NCBI RefSeq assembly: GCF_001579805.1
Contig: NZ_CP014546.1
Coordinates: 4,898,001-4,962,000, forward strand
Source of the DNA: Pseudomonas azotoformans
Lineage (GTDB): Bacteria > Pseudomonadota > Gammaproteobacteria > Pseudomonadales > Pseudomonadaceae
Length of the DNA stretch: 64,000 nucleotides
Direction of reading: 5' to 3'
The notes under the pieces are model-generated. The model ran no database searches, had not been told where the DNA came from, and saw only the letters and a list, made by a program, of their open reading frames with translations. This document shows, one piece after another, positions 1 through 7,782 of this stretch; within the stretch, counting starts at the first letter, position 1, and the number at the start of each line of letters is the position of its first letter. A program made the translations under genes and the position numbers.

Positions 1-179
1 CAGTGATCGGCAATAAACGCGGAGCATACCTAGGGGTGGGGGAAATTACTTGTGAAAGTGCATTGAGGGGACAGGGATCAATGTAGCGACCTTTCCTGTA
101 ATTCCACCGGCCTAGACTGATGTATCGGGTGGTGGCGACAGGTTGGGGGAGGGGACGAGTGGGGTATTGTTGGAATATC

Positions 180-1916
180 ATGGCGCATGGCCATTGCCGC
201 CTACCCACCATAAGGATATGTCCGTTGCAATCGTCCCTGAACCTCCAGAGCCTATTAGCTGACAAGCAAGTCATCGTTCCCGACTATCAACGCGCCTACG
301 CTTGGGAAACGCCTTCAGACAGTAGCCGGTCTTCGCAGGTCGACGTGTTTCTTGCTGACCTTGAACGCCATCAACTCAGCCATAGCTGTTCGCCCTATTA
401 CTTAGGGCATTTCCTTTTCGAGCGCACTGACGACAAGCTCCACATTATCGACGGTCAACAACGGCTAACGACCATTACCCTTTTTCTTCAAGCATTGTTC
501 ACTCAGTTGCGCAGCCTTCGTGAACTGAACGACGATGAAAAACGCTGCTTTTCCGACCTGATCCGTTGTGGACATATGCTACGTTTCCAAACGGTTAACT
601 ATGATCGTCAGTTGATGAACGCCGTAGTACACGGTGGAGAAAAGGTTGATGTTAGCGGGCTGGAAACCAAATCGGCTCAGCGTATTCTGCGTGCCTTCAA
701 TTATTTTACTGAGCAACTGCGTCACCAGCCAGAAGCCTGGCTGGTGACGATGCTCAGAGTGTTGTCTCAAGCCCGTTGCACGGCACATATCGTGCGAGAC
801 AGGGCAGAGGCCATTCAGATGTTTATTTTCCAGAACAACCGGGGGAAACGCCCTTCGAATCTCGAGGTCACCAAGGCACAATTTATGTATGCAGTTCATC
901 TGCGCGCAGAGGATGAACATCTCCGAGAAAACATGATTGAGGACATCAACACTCGCTTCGGGCGTATCTACAAGTCCATCGCATCTATCGGCTATCGGAT
1001 TGATGAAGACGATATTCTGCTTTATACCTTGCGGGTCTACCGCAATTCGCTCTGGGAAAGCACCCCACTTGAAATGATTGAGCAGGCGTTGGTCGGCGAC
1101 GAACCGCTAACCTTCATCCAGAAGTTTGTACAGTTACTGGAGTCGAGTTTTATTTACCTGTCAGTTTTTTTCGGCAAAGACGAGAAGGCTCATTTCGCGA
1201 TTCACTCCCTGGTCAGCCTCGGTTCGTTGGCGATCGCGCTGCCATTCATCATCAAGGCATATCGCCAAGTCATGCCTATAACAGACATTACCGCATTGTG
1301 CTCGGCTTTCGAGAGTCTGTTATTACGACATCGTCTGATAGGCAGCCGCGCAGATCTGACATCACGACTCAACGATGTCTTCGAACTATTTTGTGAACAG
1401 GATGCGGATATCCAGCCGTTGCTGAAGCGTATCGCGTATTTGAAAACGGTGGAAAGAGGCTGGTGGGCATACTGGAATGACATGAAACTTGAAGAGGCGC
1501 TACACGGTGAAATCAGCCATGCCACTGCCCGGCATTTGCTGTGGAAGTATGAAGTTTATCTGGGAGGAAATGGTCAGCGTGGTTACCGCCCGCATCGCTT
1601 CGACCGTATAGATAGACCGGAATTAGAGCATATCGCTCCACGCAGTGAACCAGTTTGCACGCCTCATGGTTACGGAGAATATAGTGAAGACTTCAAAAGC
1701 GGATATCTGAATTGTCTGGGTAACTATTTGTTATTGTCGAAATCGCATAATTGTGCAGTAGGCAAAATCGCCTTTGCAAGCAAGTTGGCGACCTATAACC
1801 ACAGTGCTCAACAGCGCGAGATATTGGCATTCTTGACCGAAGACAGATTATGGGGGATGGATGCCATTGATAAGCGTCATGAGCGGATTGTTCGGGTGCT
1901 GATGGCTCAACTGTAA
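180..1916 (+). CDS. DUF262/DUF1524 GmrSD-like nuclease, probable type IV restriction or abortive defence protein
   Basis: The N-terminal half has the DUF262 (ParB-like NTPase/nuclease) signatures PDYQRAYAW near residue 35 and DGQQRLTT near residue 91. The C-terminal part has a DUF1524 His-Asn endonuclease pattern, LEHIAP followed by LGNYLLL. In GmrSD and relatives this pair binds NTP and cuts modified phage DNA, so a defence role is inferred. At about 578 residues it has the size of a single-chain GmrSD. The frame is open from 120, but the ATG at 180 lies nearer the first conserved block and is chosen; there is no strong ribosome site for either. It is 73 bases upstream of a SMEK-domain gene on the same strand, probably one unit. 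Family call is firm, target unknown. Confidence 0.8.
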   Translation: MAHGHCRLPTIRICPLQSSLNLQSLLADKQVIVPDYQRAYAWETPSDSSRSSQVDVFLADLERHQLSHSCSPYYLGHFLFERTDDKLHIIDGQQRLTTITLFLQALFTQLRSLRELNDDEKRCFSDLIRCGHMLRFQTVNYDRQLMNAVVHGGEKVDVSGLETKSAQRILRAFNYFTEQLRHQPEAWLVTMLRVLSQARCTAHIVRDRAEAIQMFIFQNNRGKRPSNLEVTKAQFMYAVHLRAEDEHLRENMIEDINTRFGRIYKSIASIGYRIDEDDILLYTLRVYRNSLWESTPLEMIEQALVGDEPLTFIQKFVQLLESSFIYLSVFFGKDEKAHFAIHSLVSLGSLAIALPFIIKAYRQVMPITDITALCSAFESLLLRHRLIGSRADLTSRLNDVFELFCEQDADIQPLLKRIAYLKTVERGWWAYWNDMKLEEALHGEISHATARHLLWKYEVYLGGNGQRGYRPHRFDRIDRPELEHIAPRSEPVCTPHGYGEYSEDFKSGYLNCLGNYLLLSKSHNCAVGKIAFASKLATYNHSAQQREILAFLTEDRLWGMDAIDKRHERIVRVLMAQL

Positions 1917-1989
1917 CCCTGTAGCGCAGGACGGAATGTAAGAGCCTGCATTAAGTGCTTCGACTGCTGATCACCCTTAGAGGAATCCC

Positions 1990-2931
1990 ATGCTAGCTCG
2001 TGAACAACTGCTTAAACGCATCGCCGAACACCTTTCCCGTCTCAGCGTGCAAACTGAACTACTTGGAAAAATACATTTCTTCGACCTTAATATCGCGGCA
2101 GAACACTTTTATGCGAGTCTTCTTAATCAAGTGTATGGGTGTGATCTTGTCAATCTCAATCATGCCCAGATGAACGCCGCAGCGATCGACTTGGCCGATC
2201 AAAGCCGGAGTCTGGCAGTTCAGGTTACATCCCAGCGTAGTGCGCAGAAGATCAAAAAGACGTTGGACAAATTCGCTAAACATGGACTGGGAACCAGCTA
2301 CACAACTTTGAAAATTGTGATAATAGGCAAGCGAACAGGCACCTACAGTACTGTATCAGTTCCGACCGGTGTCGCCTTTGACGGCAAGGCTGACGTCATC
2401 GACAATGTGTCTTTAATCAAAGATGTTTCCCTGAAGTCGGTTAGGGAGCTCCAGTGCATCCTAGATCTAATGGAGAGTGAGCTCAACTATAGTCAGGCTG
2501 CTGCATCCATCATGGATAAAACTGATAAAGATGCTCTTTTATGTTTGCGTAACTTAATGGACCGATCCGCCTTCCAGGACCCATGGGACTTAGAAGTAAG
2601 TTATCCAAAATTCCGGAGTACTATCACCGACCTTATTGAGACAATCAATACAGGGCGATCCGAAGGGGTGCTAATCACCAAGCCTCGATTTGTCTACGAA
2701 GATCATGCACTTGCTGAACACCTGAATGCGCTCTGCACTCAGCTGCGAGCGCTACGTCAGTTGTTTCAGCTTCATGTCAAAAGCGGCGAAATTGACTTAA
2801 ACGCAAATGCTTGCAAGTTCCATATTCCTGAGTCTGGAGCGGCTTTCGATGCGCAACGTAATGCAATCATCGCTGGATTCAATGCCATAACGGCGCCGTA
2901 CGGCCTCAAGCCATTACCCAACATTAGCTGA
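1990..2931 (+). CDS. SMEK-domain protein, putative nuclease-fold partner of the upstream DUF262 protein
   Basis: The first 110 residues carry the SMEK-domain pattern: an amphipathic start, a conserved LNIAAEHFYASLLN stretch, VNLN, then AIDLAD (Asp67, Asp70) and AVQVTS (Gln78), followed by a Lys-rich helix. The Asp/Gln arrangement resembles a degenerate PD-(D/E)XK core. The rest (residues 150-313) is mostly helical with no family I recognise. A ribosome site (AGAGGAA) sits 5-6 bases before the ATG. SMEK domains are seen in predicted defence genes; coupling to the DUF262 gene is inferred from same-strand proximity. Biochemical activity is unknown. Confidence 0.65.
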   Translation: MLAREQLLKRIAEHLSRLSVQTELLGKIHFFDLNIAAEHFYASLLNQVYGCDLVNLNHAQMNAAAIDLADQSRSLAVQVTSQRSAQKIKKTLDKFAKHGLGTSYTTLKIVIIGKRTGTYSTVSVPTGVAFDGKADVIDNVSLIKDVSLKSVRELQCILDLMESELNYSQAAASIMDKTDKDALLCLRNLMDRSAFQDPWDLEVSYPKFRSTITDLIETINTGRSEGVLITKPRFVYEDHALAEHLNALCTQLRALRQLFQLHVKSGEIDLNANACKFHIPESGAAFDAQRNAIIAGFNAITAPYGLKPLPNIS

Positions 2932-3040
2932 CTCGCAATACCTAGACCACGCGTTGACGTGCCGCTGTAGTGCAGTACGTGCGGAAATTAAAGGTGAATG
3001 GAGAGAACGGGATGAAATCCAAGGACTCGACATTCACACG

Positions 3041-3140
3041 AAGGGCATAGCCCGTTGAGAGAGTGGAAGTCAGAAGTGGCTTTGTCGAATCCGCGAGTTA
3101 ACACGCTCATAAACATATCTGACCTAATACACTATTTAAC
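3041..3140 (+). repeat. Left copy of a diverged 100-bp direct repeat bordering the defence cassette
   Basis: Aligns without gaps to 7662-7761, about 80 of 100 positions identical by hand count. The longest shared blocks are CCCGTTGAGAGAGTGGA, TTTGTCGAATC and CATAAACAT. Similarity stops inside the XerD half-site that follows, which is what Xer strand exchange would give. Probably the chromosomal flank of an older dif or of an integrated element. Confidence 0.8.
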
Positions 3141-3161
3141 CTATGGGCGATGCGTCCCGTT
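3134..3161. other. Degenerate dif-like site (left attachment-site candidate)
   Basis: The first 11 bases (ATTTAACCTAT) match the XerD arm of dif at 9 of 11 positions. The central six bases and the XerC arm do not match convincingly. Its position at the end of the left repeat mirrors that of the intact dif at the end of the right repeat. Integrative elements that use Xer often leave one intact and one divergent site. Confidence 0.5.
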
Positions 3162-3376
3162 CACTAGCGTCCAAGCACGTTATTAAGCTCAGCTTTTTCA
3201 TCCATTGAGGTGCGAGAAGCTCATCAAATCATGTTCATAGCCGAGAAACCGCTCTCCGTCGTGATAGCCTCAACAATGTCTATCAGGTCTTGAATCATCA
3301 GCCACAATAATCCCTGACTAGCGATAGAAACTATCACTCTCTCCAACCATACAAACTCACGGTTGCCTGACCACCA

Positions 3377-4585
3377 CTAAACCACATCGTCAGCTGTTCC
3401 AATATCTTGATGTATGCGCAAGTAAACCTTCCCGGCGATCATGTCCACGCAGCGTACCAAGGTAGTAATGGCCTGAGCATCAAAGCTGCGGTGCTCTGGG
3501 TTTTCCATGCGAATCGCATAAATTTCAGTCATATTGAAGTCTTGATGGATGACTTCTGATGTGAATGTGTACACGGTGTCATAAAAGCTTCGCCCGAGCG
3601 GGGACATCTGGGCTTTGTTGCTGACATTATTCAAGAAGTCATAGCAGTACCTCATGCTCTCAGCCCACACCTTATTTCGCTTTGTATTATCGGAGCGCGA
3701 GGCTAGGATTAGAGCCGCGTCGAACCCTCTGCGATCGACTGCAGAATGGGTCTGCAGCCAGAAGCCGACCTGCTCTGGGGCTAGCCAATCGACATAGAAG
3801 TCCAACGATATTTCATAAACGGATCGAAGCAATGCGACCGCTTGGTAATAGAAGCTGTTTTTGATCAGCAGCCTGATCGCTTGAATATTTTCACTCAGAC
3901 GATAAAGGACGGAGAACAGTGTCTGATGGTAATGGATGCCGGCGCTATAGGCCCCGTTAAAGTTTTTCAGGCGCCCCGTCAGGGCGTCAATGGTGCTTTG
4001 AAGGTGCTCGAACTTTGAGTCGTCATCGGTGAACTCCTTTTTGCCGAGAAGTGAGTAATACTCGCATTTCTCCGGTAGGGGCATCGTGGAACAGATGAAT
4101 CCGCCCAGATTTTCTTCGTGGAAAAACTGGTGCCTTACCTGAAATGCACTTTCCACAAGATCGGCAGAGGTCTCCAGGATGACCACGGGTACTTTGTGAA
4201 TCCCCAGTTCCTTGTAAGCAAGGTAGACGTCGCTGTCGTCAGGCGCGATGAATTTAGCGTCTGAGTCTGAGTTTATGTTCTTGTAGACATAGAGCGCTGG
4301 TCGATGCCCGGATCTGATCATCTCCTTGGCATGGTCAACCATCTCTCTACGGACAGGGTCTTCGACAAGGTCGAATCGCCCGTTATTTCTCTGGAAAAAG
4401 CCATTGAGGATGTTGTCCAGCGGTAGGCGGGAGAGCAGTGCTTGTTTCTTACCATTGCTGAAGGTCAGATATTTCTTCAGGAAGATTTCGTCATCAACCA
4501 AGTCATCACGGCACAAAATCTTGTCGGCGCAGATTGTTGTGGTGATAGGTCGGCGTACGAGCTTTTTTGATTCAGTTTTGAGCAT
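3377..4585 (-). CDS. ParB-like/DUF5677-like protein, function unknown, in defence cassette
   Basis: 402 residues starting at an ATG with AAAGGAAG about nine bases upstream. The N-terminal 150 residues resemble a ParB/sulfiredoxin-type fold: a segment ending PALYVYKN, then an APDDSDVYLAYKELGIHKVPVVIL block in which DDSD occupies the place of the usual DG-H-R. The C-terminal 200 residues are helical and resemble DUF5677, with ALLRSVYEISLDFYVDWL and a VIHQDFN motif. The DUF5677 and ParB assignments are my reading and need a profile search. It is transcribed leftwards, alone, inside the repeat-bounded segment; AT-richer codons than the core genes suggest transfer. Role in defence is guessed from location only. 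Confidence 0.5.
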   Translation of the reverse strand: MLKTESKKLVRRPITTTICADKILCRDDLVDDEIFLKKYLTFSNGKKQALLSRLPLDNILNGFFQRNNGRFDLVEDPVRREMVDHAKEMIRSGHRPALYVYKNINSDSDAKFIAPDDSDVYLAYKELGIHKVPVVILETSADLVESAFQVRHQFFHEENLGGFICSTMPLPEKCEYYSLLGKKEFTDDDSKFEHLQSTIDALTGRLKNFNGAYSAGIHYHQTLFSVLYRLSENIQAIRLLIKNSFYYQAVALLRSVYEISLDFYVDWLAPEQVGFWLQTHSAVDRRGFDAALILASRSDNTKRNKVWAESMRYCYDFLNNVSNKAQMSPLGRSFYDTVYTFTSEVIHQDFNMTEIYAIRMENPEHRSFDAQAITTLVRCVDMIAGKVYLRIHQDIGTADDVV

Positions 4586-4819
4586 TGGTTGCTTCCTTTC
4601 AGTGTTTGCGTGCCACCGTCACCACAGAGGTAGAGTACGCAGTTTCATGCAAGCGCATCGGTCAGATCCTATCGGTTGAGGTCGCCGGTCGGACAAGGAG
4701 GATAAATTGTAAGCGACTATTAGCTACTTTCACGCCGCCGTTGTTGCGTTGGTCATCAACAAGGGAAAAAGCTGGAAGTACGCACAATTACATCCCTATT
4801 GCGATTCGTGCAAAGGGAA

Positions 4820-5017
4820 ATGAGTAATATCGCTGAGATCTTCGATTACGCCGCAAATCTCATGAAAGACCTCGAAATGTTCTGCCAAAAGCCTAGCCTA
4901 AGACTTGACGGAAGGATCTATGAACTCAGATTTGACATGTACAAGTTCGTTTTCAACATTACGAACACTATTGCGGACAAATGCCGAAAATCCCAGAGCT
5001 CTGCGAAAAGAAGGTAA
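4820..5017 (+). CDS. Small hypothetical protein, possibly remnant
   Basis: A 65-residue open frame beginning MSNIAEIFDYAANLMKD, with AAAGGG a few bases before the ATG, rather close for a good ribosome site. Composition looks protein-like (amphipathic first half, basic tail) but I recognise no family. It overlaps by 37 bases another small frame starting at 4981, so the two could be a coupled pair or one frameshifted gene. It lies in the gap between the DUF5677-like gene and gapS4b. Weak call. Confidence 0.3.
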   Translation: MSNIAEIFDYAANLMKDLEMFCQKPSLRLDGRIYELRFDMYKFVFNITNTIADKCRKSQSSAKRR

Positions 5018-5151
5018 CTCAGAAGCTCAACTGGCCTTATCGTGCCGAAAATAACATTGGCAAACACGACGTTTTCTGCAGCCCGTCTAACATACCAATC
5101 ACCACCATCGAAGGTTTCGTGTACGCCAAGGATATTGATCTGCTTCGTTAA
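4981..5151 (+). CDS. Small hypothetical protein or downstream half of a frameshifted gene
   Basis: A 56-codon frame beginning MPKIPELCEKKVTQKLNWPY and ending VYAKDIDLLR. The ATG overlaps the preceding small frame. The minus strand is also open here for about 75 codons, so strand is uncertain. No family recognised; kept because the residue pattern looks coding and because it is too short for routine gene finding. Confidence 0.25.
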   Translation: MPKIPELCEKKVTQKLNWPYRAENNIGKHDVFCSPSNIPITTIEGFVYAKDIDLLR

Positions 5152-5454
5152 TTTACTTGCTGTGAACCGCCTGCTTTCACATGCCGAGCAATCAAACAGA
5201 TAAGGTCTAGGAAACAGGGTGCACAGCGAGTTCCAGCAGCCAACGATCGTCGAACATCTATTTCAACCCAAGACACGACCTATGTCCTGATGGACCCCGG
5301 TAAGCGGGGGCGTGCACCCCGAGCAGCCCCAAGCAATAAGGGTGATCGCGTCCGCAAAAATAGGAGGACACATTTGCCCTTAATGCTGGAGTTTGGAAGG
5401 AGCGCTCACCCGGCGCTTCCGTTCAGCCAGCTCATAGCGGCCTCACCCCGAGGA
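5152..5454. other. Intergenic stretch downstream of gapS4b
   Basis: Follows two doubtful small frames and precedes the 3' end of the gapS4b-like gene. I see a short hairpin CCCCG/CGGGG at 5295-5309 and an imperfect GC-rich hairpin around 5396-5421 that could end gapS4b transcription, though neither has a T-run. No gene or known RNA is evident. Confidence 0.4.
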
Positions 5455-6591
5455 CTACGGCGCAACCACACCGCCGGCAGGAATCGAGAGGGTCTTGAAG
5501 GTCTCGGTTTTCTCGGACTCCAACTCTTTCAGAATCGTTTCCTTCGCGTCATTCTTGTCGATGGATCGGCCCGTGTTGTCAAAGCTGATCTGCTTGATCC
5601 TCAATTCGATCTCACTGTCTTTTTTCTGGGCCGTAGAAAACTCTGGGAAGCCAAGCGAGATCACACAGTCACCATCGAGGCCCGAGGTGCTGAATCGGAA
5701 TTTGGCATCGATCCTGTGCAGGAAAAGGCTAGGGCGGTAGGACACCTCCGAAAGAAAGTCGGAGTGCTCAAGGCTGAAGCCCTTCAAGTCCAGGTTTCGA
5801 ATTTTCTCCTTCATCCAGTCCAAGGCTGTAGGGAGAATGATATCTGGATCGGGAGAGATCCCGATATCGACGACCTCTACAAACGACAAGGCGATCAACC
5901 TGCTGTGTTGCGTGAGCCCCAATAGATAGTTGAACCTGTTTTGGTTGGTGAAATCGCAAAAACGAATCGAGGTCGCCTGCTCACTTTCACTGATCTGCTT
6001 GACCGATTTAAAATGTGAAATCAGATGCCTGGACATCGCTTTGTTGGTCGTCCGTGTTTCCGGCGCAGTGTGTGTGAAGATCAGGGTGAGCTCGTCCTGA
6101 GCCTTGTTTTTCTTGATCTCGATGGAGCCTTTGAAATTTTTGCGCGAGTCAGCCCAGCTCTTGGAACGGTCAGTCCGCTCCAGCAGGTAGTCCATCCGAA
6201 TCGTGTCGAGGTCTTTGTTGACCGGGTAGAACTCCGGCGTCCCCAAGACCTTGAAGTTGACGAAGTCAAGATCCAGCAGCTTGTTGACGTCCATGACGGC
6301 AGGTATCGCATCCAGCAGGGTATCCTCACCTTGCCACTTGATCGTCTGGGTGGTGATCTTGGGGTTGTCTTCCTTGGTCGTGTAGGCAAGCTGGAGCTTA
6401 GAAAACTCGCTGGGGCGAATCAGGGACAGAGTAAGGGCAGGGATGGAATGCTCTTTCTCTGAGCTGCTGATGAAGACGCCTCGGCTCTTCAGAACCGTTT
6501 TGATATCGCCGGCACCGATGTAAGGCTGAGCCAGATAAGTACGCAGCGCCTCACCCTGGGGAAGGATAGAGTCAATATTTTGATTACTCAC
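5455..6591 (-). CDS. gapS4b: GapS4b-like protein, second component of a probable GAPS4 anti-phage system
   Basis: The frame is open further upstream, but a GTG at 6591 with AGGGG eight to nine bases before it gives 378 residues beginning VSNQNIDSILPQGEALRT, which looks like the true N-terminus. It starts five bases downstream of the end of the nuclease-like gene, so the two are an operon. Visible features are the ILPQGEALRTYL opening and GDIKTVLKSRGVF, then a long mixed alpha/beta body with no catalytic motif that I can name. The GapS4b call rests on recall of the family start, its size and its pairing with a GapS4a-like nuclease, not on a search. Confidence 0.6.
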   Translation of the reverse strand: MSNQNIDSILPQGEALRTYLAQPYIGAGDIKTVLKSRGVFISSSEKEHSIPALTLSLIRPSEFSKLQLAYTTKEDNPKITTQTIKWQGEDTLLDAIPAVMDVNKLLDLDFVNFKVLGTPEFYPVNKDLDTIRMDYLLERTDRSKSWADSRKNFKGSIEIKKNKAQDELTLIFTHTAPETRTTNKAMSRHLISHFKSVKQISESEQATSIRFCDFTNQNRFNYLLGLTQHSRLIALSFVEVVDIGISPDPDIILPTALDWMKEKIRNLDLKGFSLEHSDFLSEVSYRPSLFLHRIDAKFRFSTSGLDGDCVISLGFPEFSTAQKKDSEIELRIKQISFDNTGRSIDKNDAKETILKELESEKTETFKTLSIPAGGVVAP

Positions 6592-6595
6592 TGCA

Positions 6596-7519
6596 TCATC
6601 CCCTGAAATCTGCTTGATAGGATTCGAATTCGACGATTGAAGCGAACTCCTTGTTCGCGATCGACAGCTTTGCAATGTCTGCGATTTCCTCATGAGCTAC
6701 GTAGTTGTAGTCAGGGAACGCGAGGGCCACCTTGTGGGGAAATTCCATGGCGATATCCATCGAAAAGCCGATCATGCGTTTCACCGCTTCGATGCTGAAA
6801 AGATCCTGGCAGCAGATAAGCAAAGATTTCCTTTCGTGCTCCTGGATGAAGAAGGGGATCAAGCCACTGTTGAGGTATTCGGGAGGCAGTATTGTCCCGT
6901 TTGTGACTCTCTGAATGGGGCTTACGTTTTTCCCAGTCGAGGGGTAGAGGAAGCGAACATTCTCTGCACCGAAGCGATTTCTTGCGTACGTGATGGTATC
7001 GAATAGAAAACTGGCTCGATGATTATCAATGACGTAGATCGTGCCGTAGTTGGCGCTATCCAGATTCCGCGAACCCGCCACTTGGCTGACCACATCCGCC
7101 TCTGCGTCCGATGCGGCGCTGAACCAGCAAAGGATGCCTGCAAGCGACTGACCACTCGCGCCGGGATAGCCTAGGTTGACCGACCTTTTCAGCGGCGAGC
7201 GATTGAAGCATTCGACTGTCGTTGCAAGGTCGGCGAAATGCTCTTTGAATATTGTGCCAGGTGAAGTCGGGTAAGGGCCCGATGTAAATTTCGAAGAAAT
7301 GACGAGGTGCTTGAGGACGCCATCTTCCAGTGGGGATAGGCAGCTGAAGACAAAATCGGCACCATGAGTTTTTCTGGAATTGCCGGTCGTGCTATGGGGG
7401 ACAGGTTTTACACAGTCGAACTCGTGCCCCTTGAGTGCTGCCTTCCAACCTATCAGGTTGAGCAGCGCCTCCGTGATGTTTTCACCGCGCTCGCCCAGCT
7501 TCTTTGACCATTCGCCCAT
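6596..7519 (-). CDS. gapS4a: GapS4a-like protein, putative PD-(D/E)XK nuclease of a GAPS4 anti-phage system
   Basis: 307 residues; the ATG at 7519 has AAGGGA six bases upstream, better placed than the GTG just before it. The start MGEWSKKLGERGENITEALL is the expected N-terminal helix of GapS4a proteins. It is followed by a nuclease-like core: GW, then HGADFVFS (candidate active-site Asp) and LVISSKF (candidate catalytic Lys, with Ser where Glu or Asp is usual). GAPS4 was described as a two-gene system that protects by cell suicide; here the partner follows immediately. Family assignment is from recall, so moderate confidence. Confidence 0.62.
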   Translation of the reverse strand: MGEWSKKLGERGENITEALLNLIGWKAALKGHEFDCVKPVPHSTTGNSRKTHGADFVFSCLSPLEDGVLKHLVISSKFTSGPYPTSPGTIFKEHFADLATTVECFNRSPLKRSVNLGYPGASGQSLAGILCWFSAASDAEADVVSQVAGSRNLDSANYGTIYVIDNHRASFLFDTITYARNRFGAENVRFLYPSTGKNVSPIQRVTNGTILPPEYLNSGLIPFFIQEHERKSLLICCQDLFSIEAVKRMIGFSMDIAMEFPHKVALAFPDYNYVAHEEIADIAKLSIANKEFASIVEFESYQADFRG

Positions 7520-7661
7520 CACACGTCCCTTGAATAATGAATGTCTTGCAACCCAATGCCGCCAGAACGCTACGGAGGTTGAGGCATCATGTCTAGTGGC
7601 AATTTGTCAGCAAATCGACGATGGATTGTCTGGTTCGAGCGATAATGGCTATATGAACAGG

Positions 7662-7761
7662 AAGGACATGGCCCGTTGAGAGAGTGGACATCAGAACCGG
7701 ATTTGTCGAATCAGCGACTTAGGTGGCCCATAAACATCTATAACATAATACTTTATTTAAC
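7662..7761 (+). repeat. Right copy of the 100-bp direct repeat, abutting dif
   Basis: Gap-free counterpart of 3041-3140, about 80% identical. It ends in the ATTTAAC that forms the outer XerD arm of the intact dif. If an element entered by Xer recombination, this copy would be its own flank and the left copy the chromosomal one. Confidence 0.8.
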
Positions 7762-7782
7762 ATAATATACATTATGCGTAAT
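7755..7782 (-). other. dif: dif, XerC/XerD chromosome dimer resolution site
   Basis: Read on the plus strand, the XerD arm ATTTAACATAA (7755-7765) and the central TATACA (7766-7771) are identical to the reverse complement of E. coli dif. The XerC arm TTATGCGTAAT (7772-7782) matches at 8 of 11, about what Pseudomonas dif sites show. XerC and XerD resolve chromosome dimers here at division, driven by FtsK. KOPS-like octamers (GGGNAGGG) lie on the plus strand to the left and on the minus strand to the right, as expected for the terminus. No other dif is visible in the window. Confidence 0.9.

Follow-up and report, generated by a model that had tools for sequence, protein, structure and literature searches.

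Genes and repeats beside dif

We analyzed a window of 64,000 nucleotides from Pseudomonas azotoformans (positions 4898001 to 4962000 of the 6.86-Mb contig NZ_CP014546.1), in which a 4.6-kb segment with the genes of a GAPS4 pair lies between two repeats, R1 and R2, the second of which borders dif, the site of chromosome dimer resolution (Table 1). An earlier sequence-only reading had taken this segment for a cassette inserted by the host recombinases XerC and XerD, and much of the structure that it described was recovered. Its two gap-free repeats of about 80% identity correspond to a 108-nt pair (3036-3143 and 7657-7764; 80% by BLAST), and the XerD half-sites that it had placed at 3134-3144 (9 of 11 letters matching) and 7755-7765 (11 of 11) can be read in the sequence. 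The segment has the low guanine-plus-cytosine content that had been claimed (50.3%, versus 60.7% for the left-hand 20 kb and 59.0% for the right-hand 6 kb), and the GAPS4 pair is present as adjacent gapS4a and gapS4b genes, predicted to act against viruses, with both proteins above the curated NCBIfam cut-offs (270 bits for NF047933 and 300 bits for NF047934). The similarity of the repeats was said to run up to the Xer core; this did not hold, since both copies carry ATTTAAC and then diverge from base 8 onward within the 11-bp XerD half-site, with two later letters still in agreement.

A genome-wide search with R1 returned two places only, R1 itself and R2 (the second at E = 5.8e-21), and the repeat, for which a check on scatter had been suggested, is thus not scattered in this genome. 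A profile built from relatives widened the copies to approximately 3017-3142 (R1) and 7648-7778 (R2). The first 24 bp of dif, scanned with up to 3 mismatches, had no second genomic match. A segment integrated between 3134 and dif is supported, as the earlier reading proposed, and dif is rebuilt at its right side.

Table 1. Features of the dif locus in window coordinates
Feature	Position	Strand	Evidence or remark
dif	7755..7782	+	Exact match; XerD half-site 7755-7765, core 7766-7771, XerC half-site 7772-7782; right junction, rebuilt
R2, right end of element B	7648..7764	+	Profile 133.1 bits; equals the stretch from dif to the ginA start in gin-bearing relatives
R1, right end of older element A	3017..3142	+	Profile 88.6 bits; 80% identical to R2
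Left end of element B, degenerate, abutting R1	3135..3167	+	23 of 34 motif letters, counted from 3134
TTTAAC, putative 6-bp crossover segment at left junction of element B	3135..3140	+	Partner at 7756-7761; common divergence point of the ends of relatives
Element B (4.6 kb, no gin, carries GAPS4)	3135..7761		Both ends found; no gin homologue
Element A, right part	1..3140		Left end beyond the window, at about L003:12915
GapS4a	6596..7522	-	NCBIfam NF047933, 334.7 bits
GapS4b open frame	5455..6693	-	NCBIfam NF047934, 394.7 bits
DUF5677 protein	3377..4585	-	Pfam PF18928, 32.1 bits (cut-off 27.1)
Gene remnant	4799..5205	+	91% identity over 408 bp to an open frame of 268 aa in the dif island of G207
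GmrSD-type restriction protein, cargo of element A	120..1916	+	Pfam GmrSD_N 88.8 bits (cut-off 33.2), GmrSD_C 34.5 bits (cut-off 23)
SMEK-domain protein, cargo of element A	1990..2931	+	Pfam SMEK_N 139.4 bits (cut-off 27)

A recombinase operon adjoins the repeat in relatives

The occurrence of the repeat (R) was investigated in 298 Pseudomonas genomes, which also served for the counts of ginC, GapS4a and left ends given below (G-names denote genomes, and L-names denote loci). The sequence-only reading had proposed to look for the repeat in other genomes, and it was found beside dif across the genus, in at least 45 of the 298 (our own included) when we counted alignments that reached dif and started at least 40 nt before it. 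In relatives, R occupies the interval from dif to ginA; this first gene of an operon starts 116 bp from dif. The operon encodes a tyrosine recombinase of 422 amino acids (aa) (GinA) followed by proteins of 517, 705 (GinC) and 131 aa; the 422-aa and 517-aa proteins match Phage_integrase, and the 705-aa and 131-aa proteins gave no Pfam or NCBIfam match. Close copies of ginC (above 80% identity; two of the nine are partial) are present in 9 genomes, and each has an R match at no more than about 4 kb. This match is at dif in eight cases and, in the ninth (G282), is an older copy 58 kb away. Distant ginC relatives (24-32% identity) occur in a further 19 genomes. Moreover, in 40 of 46 named ginA loci, the ginA match starts 37-123 bp from a dif (up to 3 mismatches in 24); the 46 loci overlap the 298-genome sample (at least 11 on identical contigs). 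Among the six others, L103 has R followed by the next left end, and the remaining five (L097, L098, L105, L121, L128) show truncation or decay.

Distant sets of these proteins also occur in the genus. Homologues of GinA, GinB, GinC and GinD lie beside ssb (Pfam SSB) in L132; a second ssb locus (L134) has homologues of GinA, GinB and GinC, a locus beside nrdA (L133) has GinA, GinC and, weakly, GinD, and L131 has homologues of all four.

No recombinase had been seen within the segment by the earlier reading, and we likewise found no homologue of the four gin proteins of relatives in the loci fetched from this genome, element B included. A genome-wide search of this genome for ginC returned nothing, the same search having matched in 28 other genomes; one for ginB was also negative, without a positive control, and ginA and ginD were not searched genome-wide.

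Two other arrangements of ginA were recorded. One contig of P. putida ASAD (L084, L103) bears ginA twice, with about 35 kb between the copies; the outer copy ends in R joined to a left end, which makes a stacked pair. In G191 (L135:2974-4305), a relic of a dif-family ginA lies on the XerD side of dif, and the ginA of a distant GInt (the island class introduced below) starts 100 bp from dif on the XerC side; a second lineage may thus use dif from the other side.

Left ends and junctions

The opposite end of the elements is marked by a 34-letter motif, of which this genome has two copies, at dif -14840 (4 of 34 mismatches) and at dif -4621, which is window position 3134 (11 of 34 mismatches). 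None of 41 sequences, each shuffled once, equaled the 23-letter resemblance that follows R1. In a scan of the genus that allowed up to 3 mismatches and used the reversed motif as a control, the motif was found once each in 24 of the 298 genomes and the control in none. In 18 of these 24 the motif shares a contig with a listed dif, 1.2-81 kb from it, and all 18 copies have one and the same orientation and lie on its XerD side; in 4 others dif was not among the matches listed, and in 2 the motif lies on other contigs. A left end of 33 nt recurs among the dif-family elements, and it shares inverted sequences with the end of R (ATGTCAGATGTTCATAAG versus CTTATGAACAT..CTGACAT).

We then compared 13 left junctions, those of 12 two-ended chromosomal elements and of G234. 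Ten of the 13 have TTTAAC itself as the 6-mer at the junction; the 6-mer is followed by AAGT in 10, TTAT in 2 and CTAT in 1; the ATAA of the XerD half-site followed it in 0 of 13 of these junctions, whose left ends had been picked by motif similarity. The G234 locus (L063) has an exact left end at dif -1244 without R, and about 29 bp of host flank on both sides.

Empty sites and two layers

The left flank of the island consists of a phosphoenolpyruvate (PEP) mutase gene and a kinase-like gene, both of which adjoin dif in G247, G090 and G017. In this genome, about 14.8 kb separate the kinase-like gene from dif. When the flanks were joined at the 6-mer, they aligned without gaps to the empty sites of G247, G090 and G017 at 76%, 80% and 77% identity, and sliding the join by 1-4 bases reduced identity to 40-52%. 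The precise join is that of the left junction of element A with dif. The earlier reading had predicted an empty site in close relatives; such sites do exist in sister species, for the whole 14.8-kb island and not for the 4.6-kb segment alone. In G004, dif directly follows the PEP mutase gene and the kinase-like gene (L003:12283-12894) is absent; that gene may itself be an older insertion.

The positions of the ends give two layers, namely, an older element A of about 10.2 kb that ends at R1 and an element B of 4.6 kb with its end at R2 and dif. Over the compared stretch, the two repeats are 79% identical, and their best copies in other species are at 77% and 83%, a similar distance.

Cargo

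The true start of GapS4b is probably near 6591, because the family profile begins at residue 44 of the open frame. The cargo of element A comprises, besides the GmrSD-type and SMEK-domain proteins, a helicase-nuclease related to Hhe/PDC-S37 and an M48 peptidase-like protein. Strong defense-associated matches were obtained in 4 of the 6 two-ended elements whose cargo was inspected: element A (PDC-S37/Hhe-like helicase and GmrSD), element B (GAPS4), G279 (Tmn) and G140 (CARF6). The cargo of G173 gave only a weak match to a defense model, and G261 carries adhesins and a two-component system (one protein scanned against the defense library).

GapS4a exceeds its cut-off in 4 of the 298 genomes. The other three copies have no R within the 3.4-3.9 kb fetched around the gene, and the one in G235 lies 125 kb from dif, which gives no support to GAPS4 as a recurring cassette at dif. 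Comparison of GapS4a, GapS4b and GinC with solved structures gave no useful match.

Plasmid and viral copies

Among 72,556 plasmid records, 24 match the 705-aa gene ginC, 3 of them (from P. aeruginosa) at 85% and 21 below 60%. R lies at a dif-like plasmid site in the two P. aeruginosa plasmids that were inspected. Plasmid p3860P bears a two-ended copy (L082:1689-23296), with an exact left end 21.6 kb from R, an IS30 between the second and third gin genes, a helicase gene as cargo and drug resistance genes beyond the left end. Phage records gave no match to ginC at 1e-10, and viral contigs contain two ginA relatives, one at 77% with dif beside it.

Probable loss of the gin genes

Among the 12 two-ended chromosomal elements, all four gin genes are recognizable in 2 (G168 and G251), and the other 10 lack part or all of them. 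In G168 an insertion sequence (IS) separates ginA from dif, and in G251 ginA contains a stop. Homology to the gin-bearing end stops anywhere from about -1670 to -36 among the copies, and such varied stop points suit separate losses in place. In four loci from four species (L104, L106, L107 and L119), ginA is broken near codon 343 (locus position of about 11000) with differing sequence beyond, and the break in L119 is directly followed by the final part of ginD. G099 and G122 share gin-less cargo beside the right end, at 94.7% over 3.7 kb. A single gin-less lineage is disfavored, since the break points vary; the codon-343 break in four loci is one that we cannot explain.

The gin operon was probably lost in place from elements A and B. 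According to a different scenario, gin-less elements are passengers that had lost gin before arrival, and a helper GInt supplies GinABCD in trans. The elements that kept both ends without a full gin set would suit this, as would the IS in G168 and the stop in G251, the shared cargo of G099 and G122 and the common break near codon 343, and it is on account of these last two that we keep helper-driven movement in consideration, as an unlikely course of events. The homology stop points vary as separate deletions would make them, the sequences beyond the codon-343 break differ, the likeness of G099 and G122 could be by descent, and this genome contains no ginC helper.

Discussion

GInts are defined by ginABCD, an operon for three integrases and one small protein. 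It lies at one end with cargo behind it; all four genes are essential, cuts are staggered by 6 nt, and insertion sites include ssb and nrdA, according to Bardaji 2017 (PMC5385486). The class is also named the Tn6571 family in a second article (PMC10121019). The dif elements resemble GInts in the four-gene operon that their relatives carry at one end, homologous to the sets beside ssb and nrdA, and in variable cargo, apparently site-specific insertion and a 6-nt segment at the junctions. A common 6-mer (exact in 10 of 13) marks the junctions and gives a precise join; staggered 6-nt cuts at it are putative. We made the assignment from the Bardaji description and from homologues at the published sites ssb and nrdA. 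The dif elements differ from GInts in their target, the words dif and Xer having 0 matches in the main text of Bardaji 2017 (PMC5385486); in their recurring left end, that paper having found no feature shared by the 3' ends; and, for elements A and B, in the lack of gin.

From the ends and the stacking that we observed, the precision with which the whole island is inserted, the gin genes beside the same ends in relatives and their homology to the ssb and nrdA islands, we conclude, with a probability of roughly 0.83, that element B is a GInt derivative with GAPS4 but no gin, stacked at dif on an older derivative, and that recombinases of the family itself act on dif. GinA to GinC, together with GinD, would recombine a circular element with dif at a 6-bp TTTAAC that lies within the XerD half-site. 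At the left junction, host flank would then extend through TTTAAC and pass into the left end of the element, and the ginA-side end would be joined to the remainder of dif, so that dif is rebuilt. Element A would have entered dif first, and element B would have followed at dif as rebuilt, which placed the left end of B next to R1. The gin operon would subsequently have been lost from both, with the terminal repeats left behind and GAPS4 retained in B.

The claim that the island borrowed host XerC and XerD was not supported. IMEX are integrative elements that exploit Xer. LME-1 is an example (PMC9765430). The island shares with IMEX the insertion at dif, the dif rebuilt on one side and the lack of a recombinase in the segment itself, and a circle with a dif-like site integrated by XerC/XerD would account for the perfect dif on the right, the 9/11 XerD half-site on the left and the plasmid copy that is likewise at a dif-like site. 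A crossover at the Xer core would, however, leave the host XerD half-site intact, and the finding that none of the left junctions of the non-blind sample kept it argues against XerC/XerD; the junctions lie inside the half-site, and relatives with the same ends bear their own recombinase operon at the attachment end. On these grounds we rejected this mechanism, which we hold to be very unlikely. Recombinases of the element family probably inserted the island instead, because its ends match GInt-class islands whose relatives encode recombinases beside R. The presence of R beside dif in so many genomes could also mean that R is ordinary chromosomal sequence, duplicated or shuffled by homologous recombination. 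This is the least credible of the explanations and was rejected on the empty sites, sister species having dif without R; in addition, R runs into ginA in relatives, and R1 and R2 are about as far apart as from the copies of other species.

Several observations weigh against the conclusion that we favor. The mobility of elements A and B is read from sequence, and excision was not observed. The choice of left ends by similarity to the motif makes the count of 0/13 that of a non-blind sample. This genome is not among the 24 with the motif, because both of its left ends are too degenerate, that of element B with its 11 mismatches in 34 included. G209, the closest species by right flank (94%), has neither an empty site nor clear GInt ends and carries about 12 kb of other DNA at the site. 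The 6.8-kb helicase module of element A also occurs in G017 at the same locus, at 88% identity, where it lies left of the kinase-like gene (dif -7460 to -696 in L060) with no detectable GInt ends; the island is thus not purely a stack of intact elements. Element B has no gin gene, the defining feature of GInts, and we therefore file it as a gin-less derivative and not as a complete GInt. Finally, a simple scan found no inward-pointing promoter for R; the strand in question is that of the GAPS4 genes, which are oriented away from R2, as gin would be.

Other systems were compared. The Gamma-Mobile-Trio and GAPS4 are reportedly the subject of a Mahata 2024 study. The GAPS4 pair of element B is a point of likeness to it; the trio itself (GmtY, GmtZ and GmtX) was rejected, the one match being GinA to GmtY at 29.9 bits (cut-off of 340), with no match of the other three gin proteins to GmtY. 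Strand-biased circularizing elements likewise have a multirecombinase operon near one end; PMC10214605 reports them as a group separate from GInts. E. coli GInts carry defense systems (PMC10121019) and resemble our island in this, but they use other hotspots; the main text of that article has 0 matches to dif. GInts and GInt-borne defense cargo are already known. Searches of open-license PMC articles gave none that we recognized as describing a GInt at dif, and the novelty is limited to that scope.

A broader and tentative proposal, which we consider doubtful as a whole, is that a dedicated GInt lineage uses dif in Pseudomonas to load its elements, having evolved to cut the XerD half-site at TTTAAC and to rebuild dif with each insertion, so that elements could stack without harm to dimer resolution, with gin-less members such as the GAPS4 cassette traveling as satellites of gin-bearing helpers between chromosomes and plasmids with dif-like sites.

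Our favored reading replaces Xer borrowing with a testable alternative, in which the recombinases of the element itself settled on dif, splitting the XerD half-site and rebuilding dif. If this is true, dif would be an insertion hotspot open to elements that are independent of XerC/XerD, and the gene content beside dif in Pseudomonas, defense genes included, could be read as layers with recognizable ends.

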